A stretch of DNA of 43,893 nt from Larkinella terrae. GTDB taxonomy: Bacteria; Bacteroidota; Bacteroidia; Cytophagales; Spirosomataceae. Below are positions 4,694-42,832 of the stretch, one piece after another (position 1 is the stretch's first letter; each line of letters opens with the position of its first letter). Made by a program: the position numbers and the translations under genes. The notes beneath the pieces are model-generated. The model did not search any database. It had not been told where the DNA came from and saw nothing but the letters and a program-made list of their open reading frames with translations. The stretch is taken from assembly GCF_009668025.1 (NCBI RefSeq), contig NZ_WJXZ01000020.1:1-43893 (forward strand). The letters run 5' to 3'.

Positions 4694-5713
4694 ATGGAAC
4701 CTACTAAAGAATTGTTATTCACCTACTTTGCCGGTCAGGCCACGTCGGTGCAACAGAAAGTGATCGGTGAATGGCTCAACCGCCCGACCAGCCGGGAAAC
4801 GTATTTTCAGTGGCTGGATGAATGGGAACGGAGCTTCCCGCAATACGCCCCCGATCTGACCCACCACGTCGATCTATTCCGTCAGCGAATGGAAAATCCG
4901 GCGGAAGAACAGCCCCGCGTGGTACGCCGGTTTCCGGAAGAATCCCGCTCGTTTCAAAAACCGTTTCGGTGGTTGGCAGCCGCTTCCGTATCCCTAGCCC
5001 TGCTCGCCGGGGGCTGGTTTTTTCAAAAATTGCTCCTGTACAAAACCATCTCAACCGGCTCGCGCCAGCTCCGCTCGCTGAGCCTGCCCGATGGCTCCAC
5101 GATCGCGCTCAACAGCAATTCGTCCCTGACCATTCCCCGCATCGGCTACGGCTGGCTTTCCCGGCGGGTGGCGCTGACGGGCGATGCGGTTTTCGACGTC
5201 AAGCACCTTTCGACCCACCAGCCTTTTGTGGTGCAGGACATGAACGGACTGGATGTGGAAGTGCTGGGAACCGAATTTTCGGTGCGCAGCCGGACGGCCA
5301 AGGCAGAGGTGGTTCTGAAACGCGGCAAGGTGAATCTGCGCTATGCCTCCGAGAACCAGCCTCCGCAGAATCTGGTGATGAAACCCGGCGACCGGGTTCT
5401 GCTCGACGGTAAAGGCTCGCTTCAGTTACAGCCCAAGGCCGACACCATGCGGTTTGCCAGTTGGCGGTATCGCCTGTTTAGCTTTAACAATACGCCCCTG
5501 CGCGAAGTGGCCCGCCAGATTCAGGCGGTTTTTGGGGTCCACGTCCAGCTTTCCGACCCGTCGCTGGCCCGCCGGAAATTGACCGGAACGATCCGCGCCG
5601 GATCGTCCGACGAGCTGGCGGAGGCCCTGGCGGAATTGCTCAACCTGCGGCTCAGCCACCACGACCAGCATCTCATTTTTTCAACTGCTTCCGAAAACTC
5701 CATTACGCAATGA
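4694..5713 (+). CDS. FecR-family anti-sigma factor
   Basis: 339 residues in the usual FecR order. The cytoplasmic N-terminal segment (1-90, with WLDEWERSF) binds the sigma factor. One membrane span lies at about 93-110. A FecR domain follows at about 120-215 (LPDGSTIALNSNSSLTI, VEVLGTEFSVRS), then a C-terminal DUF4974 domain at about 260-330 (FNNTPLREVARQIQAVFGV), which in the family contacts the STN domain of the SusC-like receptor. It follows the sigma gene by 24 bases, and its stop overlaps the susC start by 4 bases (ATGA), so all three are one transcription unit. It should relay substrate sensing from the outer membrane to the sigma factor. Confidence 0.95.
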   Translation: MEPTKELLFTYFAGQATSVQQKVIGEWLNRPTSRETYFQWLDEWERSFPQYAPDLTHHVDLFRQRMENPAEEQPRVVRRFPEESRSFQKPFRWLAAASVSLALLAGGWFFQKLLLYKTISTGSRQLRSLSLPDGSTIALNSNSSLTIPRIGYGWLSRRVALTGDAVFDVKHLSTHQPFVVQDMNGLDVEVLGTEFSVRSRTAKAEVVLKRGKVNLRYASENQPPQNLVMKPGDRVLLDGKGSLQLQPKADTMRFASWRYRLFSFNNTPLREVARQIQAVFGVHVQLSDPSLARRKLTGTIRAGSSDELAEALAELLNLRLSHHDQHLIFSTASENSITQ

Positions 5714-8700
5714 GAAAATCGTTACCCCTCGCCCTGGCAACCGGGTTATTAATCAGCGTCGGTTACGGCAATACCGTAGCCCAGACGCTCGCCCTGGTCC
5801 GGACAACCCAGCAGATCGACGCCCCGCAGTCGGGCAAAACCGCTGCAACGACGGGCGCCAATCTGACGCTCAAGCAAACCTTACTGGAACTGAAGGCGCA
5901 TTACGGCGTCGATATTTTGTTTGAAGAATCGGTTGTTGGACGAAACCTGAGCCCCGTCGAACCGCTCGATCTGAGTGCCCGGCTGGAAACGAATCTGAAT
6001 ACGGTTTTGAAACGTTACGGCCTACGGTTTAAGAAGTTACGTTCGGGTGCGTACCTGATTTTGCCGCCCAAAAACAGCGACCGGTCCGCCATCAGTTTGC
6101 CCCAGCTGACCAACACCTCAACCGCCGGAAATGGCCCTATCCCACTGGCGGGCCTGACCAATATTTCACCGACCCAACTGATCGGCGTGGCCCCGGTGGA
6201 TGTGCGGGTCAGCGGTCGGGTGACGAGCGAAACCGGCGAAGGACTTCCCGGGGTGAGTGTGGTGGTGAAGGGCTCTCCGCGCGGAACCTCCACCGACGCC
6301 GAGGGCCGCTACCAGCTCAGCGTTCCCAACGAGAACGTCACGCTGGTTTTCAGTTTCGTCGGTTACGCGAGTCAGGAACAGGTGGTTGGAAACCGGTCGG
6401 CAATTGATATTCAACTGGTTCCGGATACCAAAGCGTTGAACGAAGTGGTGGTGGTCGGCTACGGACAGGTCAAGAAAAGCGATCTGACCGGCGCGGTGGC
6501 CACGGTTCCTGTGGAAGAAATTAAGAAAGTAGCCGTTACTTCGCTTGACCAGGCGTTGCAGGGCCGCGCGGCCGGGGTGCAGATTACCCAGAATTCGGGC
6601 GCGCCGGGCGGTACGACCAGCATCCGGATTCGGGGCGGCAACTCGATTCAGGGCGATAACGAGCCGCTGTACGTCATCGACGGTATTCCGTTTAAAAACG
6701 ATGGAGTAAGTAATGGATCGAGTTTCAACGTGTTGAGTACGCTCAACCCCAGCGATATTGAATCAATTTCGGTGCTGAAAGATGCCTCTTCGACCGCCAT
6801 TTATGGATCGCGCGGAGCGAATGGCGTGGTGATTATCACAACCAAACGCGGCAAAGCCGGGAAGTCGACGATCACCTTCGATACGTATTACGGTGTTCAG
6901 AATGTCCGCCGGAAATACCCGGTTTTGAACGCCCGGGAATACGCGCAGTTTGTCAACGACGCCAATACCAACGAAGGCCGTCCGGCGGTTTACACCCAGG
7001 CTCAGGTCGACGCCTTTGGCGAGGGCACCGACTGGCAGGACGAGATTTTCCGTCAGGCGCCCATTTCCAATTACCAGCTTTCGTTCAGCGGAGGTGACGA
7101 AAAAACGCAGTACGCCATCTCGGGCGGTTATTTCAAACAAAACGGCATCATTGTTAATTCCGATTTCGACCGGTATTCGTTTCGGGTGAATCTGGATCGC
7201 AAGCTGACCAGTAAAATCAAGATCGGTAACAGCCTGACGGTCAACCGAACGGTTACCAATCAGGCGCGTTCGGACGGCGATTTGGGCAGTGCCGGACTGG
7301 TCACGATTGCCGCGCTCCAGTTTCCGCCCATTCTGCCGGTGGTGACGCCCAACGGTTCTTATTTGCTGACCGATCCCGCGCTGGCTTTTACCGCCGACAA
7401 TCCGGTGGCGCTGGCCCGCGACAACAAAAACCGCAACACGGCCTACCGGGTTTTTGGTAGTGTTTTCGGTGATTATCAGATTATTGATGGGCTGAACCTA
7501 CGCGTGTCGCTGGGAATGGATGCGGTTTTGCAAAAACAGGACTCGTATTTGCCGCGATCGGTGGGAAGCGGTTTGGCGCAGGGCGGGGCTGCGGCTATTT
7601 TCAATTCGCAGGCGATGACCTGGCTCAACGAAAACCTGTTGACGTACACCCGCACTATTAACACCGTCCACAATATAACGGCCTTAATTGGGTATACACA
7701 GCAAGCCAGCCGGACGGAATCCAATCGGGCGCAGGCGCGGAATTTTGTAAACGACAACCTCGGTTCGAGCAATCTGGCGTCGGGTTCGGTGCCACTGACA
7801 CCTGAATCGGGCATCGGAACCTGGGGCTTGAGGTCGTACCTGGCGCGGATCAACTACGGCTACAAAGACAAATACCTGTTAACTGCCTCATTCCGGACCG
7901 ACGGTTCTTCCCGGTTTGGGGCCAACAAACGCAACGGCTATTTCCCCTCGGCGGCTCTGGCCTGGCGGGTTTCGGAAGAAACATTCATGAAAAGCAGCCG
8001 GGTGGTGAACGATTTGAAAGTTCGGTTGACCTACGGCGCGACCGGTAATCAGGACGGCGTTGGAAACTATCCGGCCTATTCGCTGCTGGGAACCCAGAAT
8101 TACGTGTTTGGGAACACGGTTTCGACCGGTTTGGGGCCGAATCAGATTGCCAACCCGGATTTATCGTGGGAAACCACCACGCAGGCCGATTTTGGTGTCG
8201 ACGTCGGTTTCCTGAATAACCGGATCACCCTGACCGCCGATGCGTATCTGAAACGGACGAAAGATCTGTTGCTGAACGTCACCGTTCCGAGTACCTCGGG
8301 TTTTTCGAGCGCCATCAAAAATCTCGGAAAAGTGGAGAACAAGGGACTCGAATTCAGTATTTCGTCGCGCAACATCGACGGCGATTTCAAATGGAATACC
8401 GACCTGAATTTCGCGCTAAACCGCAACAAGGTACTCGACATCGGCGGAACACCCCAGATTTTTGCCGGAAGTGTCGCCAACATTGGTCAGGGGCTGAATT
8501 CCGGGATTATCCGGGTTGGCGAGCCGCTGGGGTCGTTCTTCGGCTACGTGACCAATGGCCTCTACCAGACCACCGACGAGCTGACGGCGCTGGCCGATCC
8601 GCAGGCCCGGAAACCGGGTGATCGCAAGTACGCCGATCTGAACGGCGATAAGAAAATCGACGACAACGACCGCACCATAATCGGCCGGGCGCAACCCAAA

Positions 8701-9189
8701 TTCATCGGCGGCATCAGCAATACGTTCTCGTTCAAAGGCATCGAGCTGACGGCTTTCTTTCAGGGCGTTTACGGAAATAACATCCTGAATGCCAACCGGT
8801 ATGAACTGGAATACCTGAATGCGACCACCAACCAGGACCGGGATATGCTGAACCGCTGGACACCAACCAATACCAACACCGACATTCCGCGGGCTTCGAC
8901 GACCCGCCCAGCAAACCGCGTTTCGACCCGCCAGATTGAAGACGGTTCCTATCTGCGGCTGAAGAATCTTCAGGTGGCTTACAATCTGCCTTCTTCGGTT
9001 ATTCAGGCCCTGAAAATTCAGTCGGTGCGCGTTTATGTAACCGCCCAGAACTTCCTGACCTGGACCAACTATTCGGGCTACGATCCGGAAGTAAACCGGT
9101 TTGGGCAGGACAGCCGCAGCCAGGGCTTCGACTACGCCAGCTACCCGGCCACGAAAACGCTTTTGTTTGGACTAAACGTAGGATTTTAA
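5710..9189 (+). CDS. SusC/RagA-family TonB-dependent receptor with STN signalling domain
   Basis: 1159 residues. The order is: signal peptide (1-25), STN domain (about 52-118), carboxypeptidase-regulatory-like beta domain (about 167-235, VSGRVTSETGEGLPGVSVVV), TonB-box-like segment (LNEVVVVGYGQVKKSDLTGAV), plug (about 250-370), and a long outer-membrane barrel ending in a C-terminal Phe (LLFGLNVGF). SusC-like proteins import large substrates across the outer membrane with a SusD lid. The STN domain marks this one as a transducer that signals through the FecR encoded just upstream, with which it overlaps by 4 bases. The substrate cannot be read from sequence, and no glycoside hydrolase lies nearby to hint at it. 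Confidence 0.96.
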   Translation: MRKSLPLALATGLLISVGYGNTVAQTLALVRTTQQIDAPQSGKTAATTGANLTLKQTLLELKAHYGVDILFEESVVGRNLSPVEPLDLSARLETNLNTVLKRYGLRFKKLRSGAYLILPPKNSDRSAISLPQLTNTSTAGNGPIPLAGLTNISPTQLIGVAPVDVRVSGRVTSETGEGLPGVSVVVKGSPRGTSTDAEGRYQLSVPNENVTLVFSFVGYASQEQVVGNRSAIDIQLVPDTKALNEVVVVGYGQVKKSDLTGAVATVPVEEIKKVAVTSLDQALQGRAAGVQITQNSGAPGGTTSIRIRGGNSIQGDNEPLYVIDGIPFKNDGVSNGSSFNVLSTLNPSDIESISVLKDASSTAIYGSRGANGVVIITTKRGKAGKSTITFDTYYGVQNVRRKYPVLNAREYAQFVNDANTNEGRPAVYTQAQVDAFGEGTDWQDEIFRQAPISNYQLSFSGGDEKTQYAISGGYFKQNGIIVNSDFDRYSFRVNLDRKLTSKIKIGNSLTVNRTVTNQARSDGDLGSAGLVTIAALQFPPILPVVTPNGSYLLTDPALAFTADNPVALARDNKNRNTAYRVFGSVFGDYQIIDGLNLRVSLGMDAVLQKQDSYLPRSVGSGLAQGGAAAIFNSQAMTWLNENLLTYTRTINTVHNITALIGYTQQASRTESNRAQARNFVNDNLGSSNLASGSVPLTPESGIGTWGLRSYLARINYGYKDKYLLTASFRTDGSSRFGANKRNGYFPSAALAWRVSEETFMKSSRVVNDLKVRLTYGATGNQDGVGNYPAYSLLGTQNYVFGNTVSTGLGPNQIANPDLSWETTTQADFGVDVGFLNNRITLTADAYLKRTKDLLLNVTVPSTSGFSSAIKNLGKVENKGLEFSISSRNIDGDFKWNTDLNFALNRNKVLDIGGTPQIFAGSVANIGQGLNSGIIRVGEPLGSFFGYVTNGLYQTTDELTALADPQARKPGDRKYADLNGDKKIDDNDRTIIGRAQPKFIGGISNTFSFKGIELTAFFQGVYGNNILNANRYELEYLNATTNQDRDMLNRWTPTNTNTDIPRASTTRPANRVSTRQIEDGSYLRLKNLQVAYNLPSSVIQALKIQSVRVYVTAQNFLTWTNYSGYDPEVNRFGQDSRSQGFDYASYPATKTLLFGLNVGF

Positions 9190-9213: not shown

Positions 9214-9292
9214 GAATGAACAATGAACAGTCCGTATTCCCGAATAGACAACACTCGGTTTTCTATTCATTATTAATTGTTAATTATTCATT
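9214..9292. repeat. Inverted heptad repeat (GAATGAA/CAATGAA type) between susC and susD
   Basis: The 119-base gap between the susC-like and susD-like genes holds a left arm of 7-bp units (9214-9230, GAATGAACAATGAACAG). A right arm of complementary AT-rich units lies at about 9265-9292. The arms can pair imperfectly. The same unit family occurs at 13753-13847 and, in altered form, at 16232-16306 and 30957-31021. The position inside a SusC/SusD pair suggests an RNA hairpin that could set the relative level of the two messages; that role is inference. Confidence 0.6.
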
Positions 9293-10730: not shown

Positions 10731-10780
10731 TCTGTTGGGTTACGGATTTGAGTGGCAATTGACAATTTTACCGGAGTATA

Positions 10781-10935
10781 GTCCCGTAGGGACGTAATGT
10801 TTGTAGAAAAAAGTGGCTTATCGCGTGTACGAGCGTGCCTTTAGGTACGCAATCTGATAGGCTAATTGCGTACCTAAAGGCACGCCGGGAAACATTGGTG
10901 CCTTTTCTACTACAAACATTACATCCCTACGGGAC
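10781..10935. repeat. Nested palindromic repeat (REPIN-like)
   Basis: Two inverted repeats are nested. The outer arms are 10781-10810 and 10903-10935; they differ by one base and a 3-base insertion, and each begins or ends with the small palindrome GTCCCGTAGGGAC or a near copy. The inner arms 10833-10853 and 10865-10885 are a perfect 21-bp match around an 11-base loop. Architecture (a small hairpin in each arm, arms inverted around a spacer) resembles REPIN/BIME elements, which are mobilised by RAYT transposases in other bacteria. No transposase gene is in the window. It lies downstream of the susD-like gene and could also end its transcript. Confidence 0.8.
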
Positions 10936-11123
10936 TGAAAATTCTTATCATTTAAATTCCCGGTTAAGTTTGAGAATCATAAGTAGTAAACCGAAGTCTG
11001 ATCTCAATTTGAAAAATGCAGCGTCGAACGTATTTGCAAAGCACTAATGCCGTTAACCATTTCTCAACTGGCAACTCGTAAGTAATAGTCAGCCGAAAAC
11101 CGCTGCTCGCCCAAAAAAATGCG

Positions 11124-13695: not shown

Positions 13696-13752
13696 AGCAA
13701 TACTGATTGATTGGTTTGTATCAGGCCATTGGCAAAAGCAATGCCAGAAAGA

Positions 13753-13847
13753 GAATGAACAATGAATAATGAACAATGAATAATGAACAGGCTGACGCAT
13801 ACACCAACGCATCAACCTCTTCATTATTCATTATTCATTGTTCATTC
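13753..13847. repeat. Inverted array of TTCATTA/TTCATTG heptads
   Basis: The left arm (13753 to about 13789) is a run of 7-bp units GAATGAA, CAATGAA, TAATGAA. The right arm (13820-13847) is the reverse complement (TTCATTATTCATTATTCATT and on). About 30 unrelated bases form the loop. Arms of 28 bases match almost perfectly apart from one extra unit on the left. It separates two minus-strand genes. Confidence 0.85.
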
Positions 13848-13853
13848 TTTCTT

Positions 13854-14483
13854 TTACATGCTTTTCCACTTGATGGCACAGCCGATGGCTTTGGTGTTGG
13901 TGGTGACGACGGGGCGGCCCGCCAGCAGGTTATTGACGGCTTCTTCCACGAATCTTCTTTTTACGACAGCCGCAACCTGGGGACTATCGTCGATCATGCC
14001 GGTATATTCCATCGTAAACCGGTCGCCGGTACGTTTCAGGACGAACACTTCCGGCGTGCGGGTTGCCCCGAAGGCGTGTGCCACACTCTGGGTTTCGTCC
14101 GATAAATACGGGAAGGAGTAATTTTTCTCCTGCGCCCGAATTTTCATGTTCTCAAACGAGTCTTCGCTGTAAGCACCCGGATCGTTGGGCTGAATGGCAA
14201 TGAGCGGAAAGCTCAGGGGAGCGTATTTGTGGTCGAGGGCAATCATGCGCTCCTCGTAGGCTTTCGAAAACGGGCAGTGGTTGGTCGTAAAGACGATAAT
14301 CACGCCTTTTCCATTTTTATAATCACTCAGGGAAACCGGACGACCGTCGACATTCTTCAGCTTAAAATCCATGATGACGTCGCCAATGGCGTACACTTTC
14401 TCATCCGCGAAAGGGGGCGCCGGAACGAACCTGGCCGCTGTCGCAATCATCAGCACAGCAAGCAGACTTATCCACGCTTTCAT
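13854..14483 (-). CDS. Secreted thioredoxin-fold (AhpC/TSA, redoxin-type) protein
   Basis: 209 residues from MKAWISLLAVLMIATAA, a signal peptide; an upstream ATG at 14531 adds a hydrophilic extension and was not used. The AhpC/TSA fold is visible: FKLKNVDGRPVSLSDYKNGKGVIIVFTTNHCPFSKAYEERM and, later, FGATRTPEVFVLKR with the cis-Pro of thioredoxins. The active site has a single cysteine (NHCPFS), as in the 'NHCPY' redoxin subfamily of Bacteroidota and Planctomycetota, so it is more likely a peroxiredoxin-like or thiol-binding protein than a CxxC oxidoreductase. It probably acts in the periplasm. Confidence 0.85.
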   Translation of the reverse strand: MKAWISLLAVLMIATAARFVPAPPFADEKVYAIGDVIMDFKLKNVDGRPVSLSDYKNGKGVIIVFTTNHCPFSKAYEERMIALDHKYAPLSFPLIAIQPNDPGAYSEDSFENMKIRAQEKNYSFPYLSDETQSVAHAFGATRTPEVFVLKRTGDRFTMEYTGMIDDSPQVAAVVKRRFVEEAVNNLLAGRPVVTTNTKAIGCAIKWKSM

Positions 14484-15080: not shown

Positions 15081-15083
15081 TCG

Positions 15084-15161
15084 TTTTCGGTTTTCGGTTT
15101 TCGGCGAACAGACGCCAGCGCGTGTCGACCAACCGTAAACCATAAACCGTAAACCGTAAAC
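15084..15161. repeat. Heptad repeats TTTTCGG x3 and CGTAAAC x4 between rplU and rpmA
   Basis: Positions 15084-15104 are three exact copies of TTTTCGG. Positions 15134-15161 are four 7-bp units CGTAAAC, CATAAAC, CGTAAAC, CGTAAAC. The reverse complement of the second array reads GGTTTACGG against GGTTTTCGG of the first, so the two can form an imperfect hairpin around a 29-base loop, inside the message between two ribosomal protein genes. Confidence 0.85.
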
Positions 15162-16231: not shown

Positions 16232-16306
16232 AATGATGAATGAGGAATGATGAACGATGAAGTTCGCGCATTAGCATTCATCGTTCATCATTCATAATCC
16301 ATCATT
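16232..16306. repeat. Inverted heptad repeat (AATGATGAA type)
   Basis: The left arm 16232-16261 and right arm 16277-16306 are 30-base near-complements (AATGATGAATGAGGAATG against its inverted partner, with a few mismatches) around a 15-base loop. Units are mostly 7 bp (ATGATGA, TTCATCG, TTCATCA). It fills the gap between the Nfu gene and the DUF5723 gene. Confidence 0.8.
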
Positions 16307-30939: not shown

Positions 30940-30956
30940 AAGAATTTCAAATGTAA

Positions 30957-31021
30957 AATGATGAATGTCGAATGTAAAAGTGATTCAAAACCGTGCACTT
31001 TTACATTCATCATTCATCATT
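30957..31021. repeat. Inverted heptad repeat after the DUF418 gene
   Basis: The left arm 30957-30982 and right arm 30996-31021 are 26-base near-complements (24 of 26 match) around a 13-base loop. The motif includes AATGATGAATG and TGTAAAAGTG; further right-side units continue to about 31036. Between convergent genes (DUF418 plus, GNAT minus) it could act as a bidirectional transcript end, but it lacks a clean U tract. Confidence 0.8.
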
Positions 31022-31039
31022 TATAATTCATCATTCCTT

Positions 31040-40759: not shown

Positions 40760-41386
40760 ATGCTTCAATCGCATCAACTGACCTTCGCTTACTCCCCAAC
40801 CAGGCGTTTCTCGTTTCCGGACATTCGCTGCAACGATCGCGAAGCGGTTTTGATTCTGGGGAAATCCGGTACGGGTAAAACAACGCTGCTGCATTTGCTG
40901 GCGCTGCTCCTGCGGCCCGAAAAAGGCTCGGTTACCATCGACCAAACCGATCTGACGCAACTACCAGCCTCAAAAACCGCCACGTTTCGGGCCGAACATG
41001 TGGGCATCATTTACCAGAAACCGCATTTTGTGAGCGCGCTGTCGGTGATGGACAACCTACTGCTGGCCAACTATTTAGCCAAAAACCCGCAGGATAAAAA
41101 CCGCGCCCGCGAACTGGCTACGCACCTGGGATTTGCCGACCATCTGAACAAGAAAACCCACGAAATGAGCCAGGGCGAACAGCAGCGCGTGAGCATTGCA
41201 CGGGCCGTCATGAACAAACCGGGCGTCATTCTGGCCGACGAACCCACGTCCAGTCTCGACGACGTCAACTGTGCCCGCGTGGTGGCTTTGCTGCGCGAAC
41301 AGTCCGAGCAAATCGGAGCCAGCCTGATCGTCGTGACGCACGACCAGCGGTTGAAAGATGAATTTTCGAATCAGGTGAATTTATAA
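40760..41386 (+). CDS. ABC transporter ATP-binding protein (LolD/MacB type)
   Basis: 208 residues. Walker A is GKSGTGKTT (34-42). The Q-loop region is HVGIIYQKPHFVSALSVMDN. The signature is MSQGEQQRVSIARA (in place of LSGGQ), Walker B VILADEPTSSLDD, and the H-switch VVTHDQRL. It fits the LolD/MacB/FtsE group that powers FtsX-like permeases. A permease with a His-rich loop follows 96 bases later, so the two should form one transporter. The gap between them holds an inverted heptad repeat. Confidence 0.95.
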   Translation: MLQSHQLTFAYSPTRRFSFPDIRCNDREAVLILGKSGTGKTTLLHLLALLLRPEKGSVTIDQTDLTQLPASKTATFRAEHVGIIYQKPHFVSALSVMDNLLLANYLAKNPQDKNRARELATHLGFADHLNKKTHEMSQGEQQRVSIARAVMNKPGVILADEPTSSLDDVNCARVVALLREQSEQIGASLIVVTHDQRLKDEFSNQVNL

Positions 41387-41470
41387 GTTTATCGTTTAAG
41401 GTATATGGTTTATAGTTGAAAGTCAGCTTACTACTCTTCATTTTCAATCATAAGCTTTAAACTAAAAACG
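41387..41470. repeat. Inverted heptad repeat (GTTTAxx type) between the ABC genes
   Basis: The left arm 41387-41421 reads as five consecutive 7-bp units GTTTATC, GTTTAAG, GTATATG, GTTTATA, GTTGAAA. The right arm (about 41435-41470) is an imperfect reverse complement with units GTTTTTA, GTTTAAA, GCTTATG, ATTGAAA. The unit GTTTAxx is the complement-related form of the CGTAAAC heptad found between rplU and rpmA, showing that the same family occurs in two distant operons. Confidence 0.8.
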
Positions 41471-41482
41471 GACTAACTGGAT

Positions 41483-42709: not shown

Positions 42710-42735
42710 TTTAACGGTTTTCGGTATTAACGCTT

Positions 42736-42827
42736 ACCCACGGACTGGTAGTCCGTGAGACCTGATTTTTCCAGATGATTTTTACAATATGAGTGTTGAA
42801 AATCGCACGGACTACCAGTTCGTGGGT
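42736..42827. repeat. REPIN-like inverted repeat with hairpin arms
   Basis: Arms 42736-42757 and 42806-42827 are 22 bases and differ at one position. The left arm is itself a hairpin (CACGGACT, GGT, AGTCCGTG: 8-bp stem, 3-base loop) and the right arm nearly so. The 48-base spacer has further short complementarity. It lies between the permease gene and the convergent TIM-barrel gene. The architecture matches REPIN/BIME elements. Confidence 0.85.
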
Positions 42828-42832
42828 ACGTT

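Follow-up and report, generated by a model that had tools for sequence, protein, structure and literature searches.

The window, the whole stretch of 43,893 nucleotides that was analysed, covers contig positions 1-43893 of the 7.85-Mb genome of Larkinella terrae, which comprises 22 contigs. At 13752-13848 the window contains a hairpin composed of two 29-nt arms that are complementary at 28 of 29 positions around a 39-nt loop. The right arm lies 5 nt from the stop codon of a minus-strand gene of the AhpC/TSA family (13854-14483). Tandem heptads were identified by TRF at 13754-13789 and 13820-13846, and the arms are built of 7-bp units (TTCATTA, TTCATTG and their complements) as originally predicted. 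A 116-nt stretch with the array folds at -43.4 kcal/mol, compared with -13.6 +/- 2.8 for 200 shuffles, none of which equalled it (z -10.6). At this site folding of the sense strand is stronger (-57.1 vs -43.4) through G.U pairs within the tip of the loop. No Rfam families were found in the window.

Table 1. Hairpin arms and loop motifs of the heptad arrays in the window.
Feature	Position	Strand	Remarks
Left arm, reported hairpin	13752..13780	+	AATGAAC/AATGAAT heptads; tandem array extends to 13789
Conserved tip motif GGCTGACGCAT	13790..13800	+	Read from the sequence; motif enriched in heptad-hairpin loops
Imperfect inverted partner of tip GGCTGACGCAT	~13807-13818		Read from the sequence
Right arm, reported hairpin	13820..13848	+	TTCATTA/TTCATTG heptads; 28/29 complementary to left arm
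Left arm, weaker heptad hairpin	9214..9229	+	3' of TonB-receptor-plug gene 5710-9189
Right arm, 9214 hairpin	9264..9292	+	TTCATTA/TTAATTG/TTAATTA
Left arm, GTTTTCG heptads	15083..15104	+	Directly after rplU (ribosomal L21) stop
Right arm, 15083 hairpin, AACCGTA/AACCATA heptads	15131..15161	+	Imperfect complement; 5' of next gene
Left arm, AATGATG/AATGAGG/AACGATG heptads	16232..16261	+	3 nt past nfu stop
Right arm, 16232 hairpin	16277..16306	+	Loop holds tip reversed (GCATTAGC)
Left arm, AAATGATGAATGTCGAATGTAAAAGTG	30956..30982	+	Gap between convergent genes
Right arm, 30957 hairpin	30996..31022	+	

Arrays of the same architecture had been proposed for three other gaps of the window. Those at 16232 and 30957 are clean hairpins, whereas 9214 has a weaker, bulged one. 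The gap after rplU (15083-15161) exhibits the same build as 13753, but its unit is quite different and its stem imperfect; the gene that follows is taken to be rpmA from its usual place after rplU. Inspection by eye also identified degraded GTTTATN-type heptads with a partial inverted partner in the gap at 41380-41480. Two long-armed palindromes without heptads, of the CCCGTAGGGACG...TTTGTAG and CCCACGGACTGGTAGTCCGTG types, are located at 10780-10936 and 42735-42828. Palindromes with a similar CTACAAACATT end adjoin some Y1 transposase genes in Larkinella, and for this reason the two look like REP/RAYT elements.

Both a 0.84-Mb sample and whole-genome pattern counts support the predicted genome-wide occurrence of heptad hairpins in L. 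terrae. The pattern TTCATTRTTCATTR occurs 95 + 95 times on the two strands of the 7.85-Mb genome and its reversed pattern does not occur, which exceeds the expectation for AT-rich gaps. Autocorrelation of 424 gaps from a 0.8-Mb sample peaks at lag 7 (z 13.4), followed by lag 14 (z 11.6) and lag 21 (z 10.3); lags 3, 4, 8, 10 and 11 are likewise above shuffles (z 7.0-10.8), lag 7 being the strongest and not the sole peak. Period-7 tandem stretches number nine in the gaps of the 0.8-Mb sample, one in its coding sequence and none in shuffled gaps. Inverted repeats numbered 127 in 462 gaps of the genome, compared with none in one shuffle per gap.

Hairpins were also collected from 12 blocks of nine genomes, namely L. 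terrae (G000), another Larkinella (G001), Larkinella sp. C7 (G002), L. humicola (G003), L. arboricola (G004), L. knui (G005), L. punicea (G006), L. soli (G007) and L. rosea (G008). The pooled counts are not independent, as several blocks were picked because they are syntenic with the window and the same sites recur in related genomes. The 234 arms of all detected hairpins exhibit a lag-7 self-match of 0.455 against 0.296 when shuffled (z 16.7), a lag-14 peak (z 20.3) and a smaller peak at lag 10 (z 5.9). Lag 7 is the best lag with at least 70% match in 56 of these arms and lags 8, 9 and 10 in four each, whereas shuffled arms gave one case for 7, one for 8 and two for 12. Neither of the two outcomes proposed as refutation (counts at the level expected of AT-rich gaps, or no 7-bp periodicity) was obtained, and the observation is confirmed as real and far beyond chance.

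Beyond the genus, 20 stretches (1-20 kb each) from 20 genomes of the family yielded 20 arms of at least 18 nt, which did not exhibit a significant lag-7 signal (z 1.9). Outside Larkinella, genomes G010 and G033 have arms that look heptad-like; those of G016, G024 and G027 do so less clearly. Emticicia aquatilis, a different genus, has a hairpin with AATTAAG heptad arms at 425-555 of stretch L295. Three consecutive TTCATTN units were found in 13 of the 59 genomes in the relatives set and in 18 of the 395 in the phylum set, counts that both include L. terrae. Another genus of the family carries a single direct array of approximately 60 TTCATTA units (G036:C335:8449-8867).

The original prediction of a single heptad hairpin family was not supported. 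The period-7 units of L. terrae include AATGAAY, AATGATG, AGAGTTA-like, GTTTACG, TGACGAT, GAATAAC and GGGCATA, along with smaller sets of units with periods of 8, 9 and 10, and the loops mostly differ between sites. Several unit families share period and position, and species can have different units in the same orthologous gap; the idea of a single dispersed family with a single unit was rejected because of this variation.

The units exhibit an absolute polarity. With AATGAANAATGAA on the left and TTCATTNTTCATT on the right, 5-35 nt apart, L. terrae has 54 matches and L. rosea 31, and the remaining seven genomes have none; overlapping registers of one array enter these counts more than once. 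The opposite order gave no match in the nine Larkinella genomes, compared with 85. The C content of heptad 5' arms is generally low (0.073). In 82 heptad hairpins the 5' arms contain 261 stop words against 236.7 +/- 6.1 in shuffles, and 38% of heptad 5' arms have stops in all frames against 21% of shuffled ones, a figure inflated by the repeated units; this is a weak hint that all-frame stop codons are the reason for heptads.

A second shared feature is the tip GCTRAYGC, present in 26 of 87 heptad-hairpin loops (0.41 in shuffles) and absent from the other 61. It occurs in 9/43 such loops in L. terrae, 6/18 in L. punicea and 6/17 in strain C7. The heptad units that accompany it number at least four (AATGAAC, AATGATG, AGAGTTA and GTTTACG). 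Of the loops outside heptad hairpins, 5 of the 165 long ones and none of the 64 short ones contain the tip. The related TGGCTGACGCRT has 42-101 copies in each of six genomes (L. terrae, C7, L. humicola, L. knui, L. punicea and L. rosea), compared with 1-3 for its reversed form. It exceeds the reversed control in seven of the nine Larkinella genomes and in the family members G010, G012 and G016, with no excess in L. soli (0 vs 1 reversed) or G001 (7 vs 6). Within the sampled blocks, 33 of 38 intergenic GGCTRACGC copies are inside hairpins.

The position of the hairpins relative to genes was determined with gene calls from a simple custom script and not a standard gene finder. Among the gaps sampled from the nine genomes, a hairpin of any kind is present in 84 of the 160 convergent ones, 198 of the 722 co-directional ones and 26 of the 246 divergent ones. 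The 91 heptad hairpins follow the same order, with 29/160 convergent, 55/722 co-directional and 7/246 divergent gaps, as do those of L. terrae alone (11/62, 31/306 and 3/91, respectively). Within co-directional gaps, heptad hairpins are located a median of 3 nt past the stop codon and 22 nt from the next start (n = 55), and all hairpins together 10 nt and 56 nt (n = 201).

Heptad hairpins resemble the canonical terminators of the same genomes in their position after stop codons. Canonical terminators exhibit short loops, a G.U excess and many T-rich tails, whereas heptad hairpins have mostly long loops, with a median of 25 nt when only loops of at least 10 nt are counted, and neither a T tail nor a G.U excess. 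Downstream of the stems of 37 co-directional heptad hairpins there is no U-tract, the T fraction being 0.19-0.46 over 14 positions. A canonical terminator is present in 3 of 60 convergent gaps with a long hairpin compared with 19 of 67 without (P 0.0007), and in 0 of 26 with a heptad hairpin; the exclusion by long hairpins in convergent gaps weakens to P 0.06 in L. terrae alone, and likewise to P 0.06 once gaps must have 40 nt free. Co-directional gaps exhibit no exclusion of terminators by heptad hairpins (5/49 vs 56/462, P 0.82). Judged by this arrangement, a 3'-end role of the heptad hairpins is likely.

Stems that are kept for folding of the sense-transcript RNA are expected to contain more G.U than A.C mismatches. 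Heptad stems exhibit no such excess on the sense strand (35 G.U vs 43 A.C), whereas the short-loop hairpins of the same genomes do (128 vs 54). The counts in L. terrae alone are 16 vs 24 for heptad stems and 51 vs 29 for the short-loop control. The count for a control restricted to hairpins that end in T-rich tails (47 vs 5) carries some bias from the way these were selected, and the unselected 128 vs 54 was relied on. Long-loop hairpins as a whole have 142 G.U and 126 A.C, and those without heptads 107 and 83 (P 0.09). Selection for pairing at the RNA level was therefore not seen in the stem mismatches of heptad hairpins. Folding energies were better for the sense strand in 27 and for the antisense strand in 26 heptad hairpins, and in 48 vs 33 of the non-heptad long-loop hairpins (Wilcoxon P 0.036); this test is weak, as the short-loop control has no significant strand bias either (17 vs 12, P 0.46). 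We read this as a DNA-level process that would dominate the pairing of heptad arms. An RNA function would still be compatible with these counts, because fast copying of the arms would erase the record of wobble pairs.

Comparison of orthologous gaps indicates that the units can be exchanged while a hairpin is retained. The gap at 13753 contains AATGAAY units in L. terrae and L. rosea and AGAGTTA-type units in L. humicola, L. punicea and C7; L. soli has a short-loop hairpin only, and no hairpin was detected in L. knui, G001 or L. arboricola. The loop at this site is inverted in L. punicea relative to L. terrae, L. rosea, L. humicola and C7. The gap downstream of nfu carries AATGATG-type arms in five of the nine genomes (L. 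terrae, L. rosea, L. punicea, C7 and L. arboricola), AGAGTTA-type arms in L. humicola and a short-loop hairpin in L. knui, with none detected in G001 and L. soli. The Nfu protein of L. terrae itself shares 98% identity with its L. rosea counterpart and 80-94% with those from six other Larkinella records.

The closest comparison is provided by the sister species L. punicea and C7, whose 234 orthologous proteins are a median of 97.2% identical. Their 160 orthologous gaps comprise 34 with a hairpin in both species, 17 with a hairpin in one and 109 with neither. In 26 shared long-loop hairpins, which include some replacements by unrelated hairpins, the two arms of a hairpin match each other at 0.955 and the same arm matches between species at a mean of 0.69 (median 0.785). 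The reference identities are 0.908 for flanks, 0.921 for the 109 hairpin-free gaps and 0.394 for unrelated hairpins, and eight short-loop cases have a between-species arm identity with a median of 1.0 and a mean of 0.856. When limited to the 20 pairs with alignable loops, identity is 0.94 within the hairpin, 0.80 between species and 0.91 in the flank. Arm homogenisation, a mark of template switching, is found; the excess of arm divergence over the flank is marginal in this strict subset (in 13 of the 20 pairs the between-species arm identity is below that of the flank; P 0.049).

In several gaps of these sister species the unit has changed throughout both arms. The clearest such change involves 10-nt periods, of CTCTGAT type in C7 and CTCCGCT type in L. 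punicea, and the whole-genome loads of the two units are reciprocal (GCGGAGNNNAGCGGAG 27 in C7 vs 75 in L. punicea; ATCAGAGNNNATCAGAG 52 vs 15). A heptad unit has changed at one gap (223/227), with (AGAGTGA)n in C7 and (AGAGTTA)n in L. punicea. When each gap is compared once, with a margin of at least 12, the loop is inverted between the sister species in 3 of 34 gaps against 0.12 expected (P 3e-4), and is forward in 10. One of the three is doubtful (45/30, margin 13), with a partly palindromic loop and different arms; the two undoubted inversions alone give P 0.007. Two further clear inversions were found between L. humicola and L. punicea. All 106 orthologous loop pairs, which are not independent, comprise 36 forward, 13 inverted and 57 undecided, and at least one of the inverted calls is between unrelated hairpins; the figure relied on is therefore the one with a single comparison per gap. 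Two other gaps (90/84 and 115/117 in L. punicea and C7, respectively) have hairpins with CCCCTAAATCCCCTAAAGGGGACTT-like arms in L. punicea that are absent in C7, as if recently inserted.

The reading that we favour, and to which we give an even chance of being correct, is that slippage and template switching build and keep the stems at the DNA level and that the stems serve as bidirectional 3'-end hairpins. Replication slippage by 7 nt would enlarge and homogenise the units inside an arm. Polymerase template switching would then copy one arm onto the other, sometimes inverting the loop, so that new units reach both arms. This second step is supported by two signatures, as arm homogenisation together with spacer inversion is the mark of template switching described in the available text of PMC8604942; the doubtful inversion weakens it slightly, and the inversions between L. 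humicola and L. punicea stand. Hairpins next to stop codons may be retained because RNA from either strand gains a stable 3'-end stem, which would act as a transcription end or an exonuclease barrier in place of a canonical terminator, chiefly between convergent genes. Spread of units between dispersed sites, a suggested addition, would explain species-wide shifts of unit family. Several points count against the favoured reading: slippage and template switching do not predict the absolute polarity or the conserved tip, and unbiased copying of arms by itself should not make them diverge faster than the flanks. Other such points are the stronger sense-strand fold at 13753, the sense lean of non-heptad long-loop hairpins, the missing U-tract, the lack of terminator exclusion by heptad hairpins in co-directional gaps and its borderline strength for long hairpins in L. 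terrae alone, and the mixing of related genomes in the pooled counts.

The same two processes could also produce palindromic heptads anywhere, with survival at 3' ends only because promoters and coding sequence purge them, and with no function at all. Such tolerance fits the few heptad hairpins in divergent gaps and the many between convergent genes, as well as the missing sense-strand G.U signal and the very unlike load of one unit among congeneric genomes. It does not account for the absolute polarity, the tight spacing past the stop codon, the depletion of canonical terminators in convergent gaps or the tip that is kept while arms change, and a neutral by-product is on balance unlikely, though more likely than the other rivals. 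The opposite view, in which the hairpins are intrinsic terminators of unusual shape paired by ordinary compensatory evolution of RNA, draws on the 3'-end position, the convergent enrichment, the partial exclusion of canonical terminators, the wobble pairs of the tip at 13753 and the weak sense lean of non-heptad long-loop hairpins; poly-U is also not a necessary trait of terminators according to the accessible part of PMC8355165. We consider it improbable, since G.U is the most frequent intermediate in terminators as far as the available text of PMC5381666 describes them, and heptad stems lack the excess that short-loop hairpins exhibit. Multi-base arm swaps and loop inversions also argue against it.

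The tip invites two explanations that place specificity in the sequence. It could belong to a mobile palindrome, REP or MITE-like, with the GGCTGACGC tip spread by a transposase and the arms decaying or growing later. The tip is dispersed, the six genomes with 42-101 copies of TGGCTGACGCRT have 1-3 reversed, intergenic GGCTRACGC is mostly inside hairpins in the sampled blocks (33/38), Y1 transposase genes are present in 9 of 9 genomes, and other palindromes (CCCCTAAATCCCC type) appear newly inserted in L. punicea. A script-based survey of 28 Y1-transposase loci (+/-1.5 kb, nine genomes) nevertheless identified no heptad hairpin, with other palindromes at 24 loci and none at four, and mobilisation of heptad hairpins by RAYT found no support there. 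The tip is present at 7 of the 28 loci but approximately 1 kb away, presumably in coding sequence, and most heptad loops (61/87) lack it. Of the 17 one-sided gaps of L. punicea and C7, 12 were inspected by eye; at about six sites whose arms are heptad-like or similar, the other species seems to have a degraded copy and not a cleanly empty site, and three sites look like insertions of other palindromes. A mobile origin is accordingly rather doubtful. Alternatively, a sequence-specific DNA- or RNA-binding protein could read the units or the tip, with unit shifts tracking its specificity. The reciprocal loads of GCGGAGNNNAGCGGAG and ATCAGAGNNNATCAGAG in the sister species and the conserved tip agree with such a protein, which is hard to reconcile with several unrelated units in one genome and is quite improbable. 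As a long shot, the tip GGCTGACGCRT may mark out certain gene-end hairpins as a class, with heptad arms that a dedicated, possibly trans-acting templating process actively rewrites, such that sets of sites switch unit together between sisters while tip, site and pairing persist.

REP/RAYT palindromes are dispersed intergenic palindromes. Larkinella resembles this system in having dispersed intergenic palindromes along with Y1 transposase genes (Pfam PF01797), but differs in that the palindromes flanking its Y1 genes are of other kinds, with no heptad hairpins seen. With respect to the dispersed core that characterises REP/RAYT elements, the heptad arms vary and the tip is in 26 of 87 loops. 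Heptad repeats are also known from cyanobacteria, as STRR sequences.

The closest counterpart is the GGGAATC heptameric repeat of Xanthomonas, for which the available text of Rehm 2015 (PMC4692102) reports inverted (convergent) pairs at close spacing, 70 in one genome and 75 in another. Taken together, these repeats are mainly intergenic and lie closer to the upstream gene (28 vs 160 nt). They differ among related species in both length and sequence, and consist of one G-tract unit that the authors take to be quadruplex-forming; the convergent orientation would by itself make the 5' arm of a pair G-rich. Larkinella likewise has tandem 7-nt units in convergent pairs and heptad hairpins nearer the upstream gene end (3 vs 22 nt). 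In contrast to Xanthomonas it has several units, of which AATGAAY, AATGATG and AAATGTAAAA have no G-tract and the GGGCATA-type minority has one, and its stems are near-perfect. The many units, the shared tip, the replacement of units at orthologous sites and the inversion of loops are new in Larkinella relative to Xanthomonas. The resemblance to the Xanthomonas repeats, as far as these are described in that source, suggests a recurrent process.

TAACTGA heptad repeats in five Bacteroidetes are intergenic and almost all direct according to the accessible text of MacGregor 2015 (PMC4679880), and in the genome on which that study centred most of them directly precede start codons. The Larkinella arrays, unlike these, are inverted and nearer stop codons. 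The description of such repeats as little described for Cytophagales is therefore fair for the hairpins but less so for heptads in general, given the TAACTGA and Xanthomonas repeats in the parts of the two papers available. By title and abstract, no recognisable report of such hairpins in Larkinella or Cytophagales was found in a search with most subscription journals outside its range. The over-representation of heptads among bacterial repeats has been explained by slippage (Mrazek 2007, as cited in the available text of PMC4679880 and PMC4692102). Hairpins can be created by template switching according to the part of PMC8794818 at hand, where a role in their maintenance is less clear. The quasipalindromes treated in the accessible text of PMC8604942 and PMC8794818 are events in yeast coding genes and in rRNA and microRNA genes, whereas in Larkinella a whole class of gene-end hairpins is concerned.

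Long stems are usually read as proof of selection on RNA, and the gene-end stems of Larkinella exhibit signs of a DNA-level process instead, namely the missing wobble bias, the matched arm swaps and some inverted loops. They offer a natural test bed, in many copies, for the building of hairpins by template switching, and bear on a long-standing question, why 7 nt is the favoured unit length of bacterial tandem repeats, and on how genomes replace terminator-like hairpins without losing them.

Two further arrangements were observed on contig C6 of L. terrae. Nested hairpins, in which GTTTACG-type arms enclose a second array with another unit, are located at 600527-600618 and 674725-674853 (G000:C6). 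Three hairpins at 335234, 337934 and 340651 are approximately 2.7 kb apart and have the same or nearly the same loop, identical in the first two, and were probably copied together with their gene.
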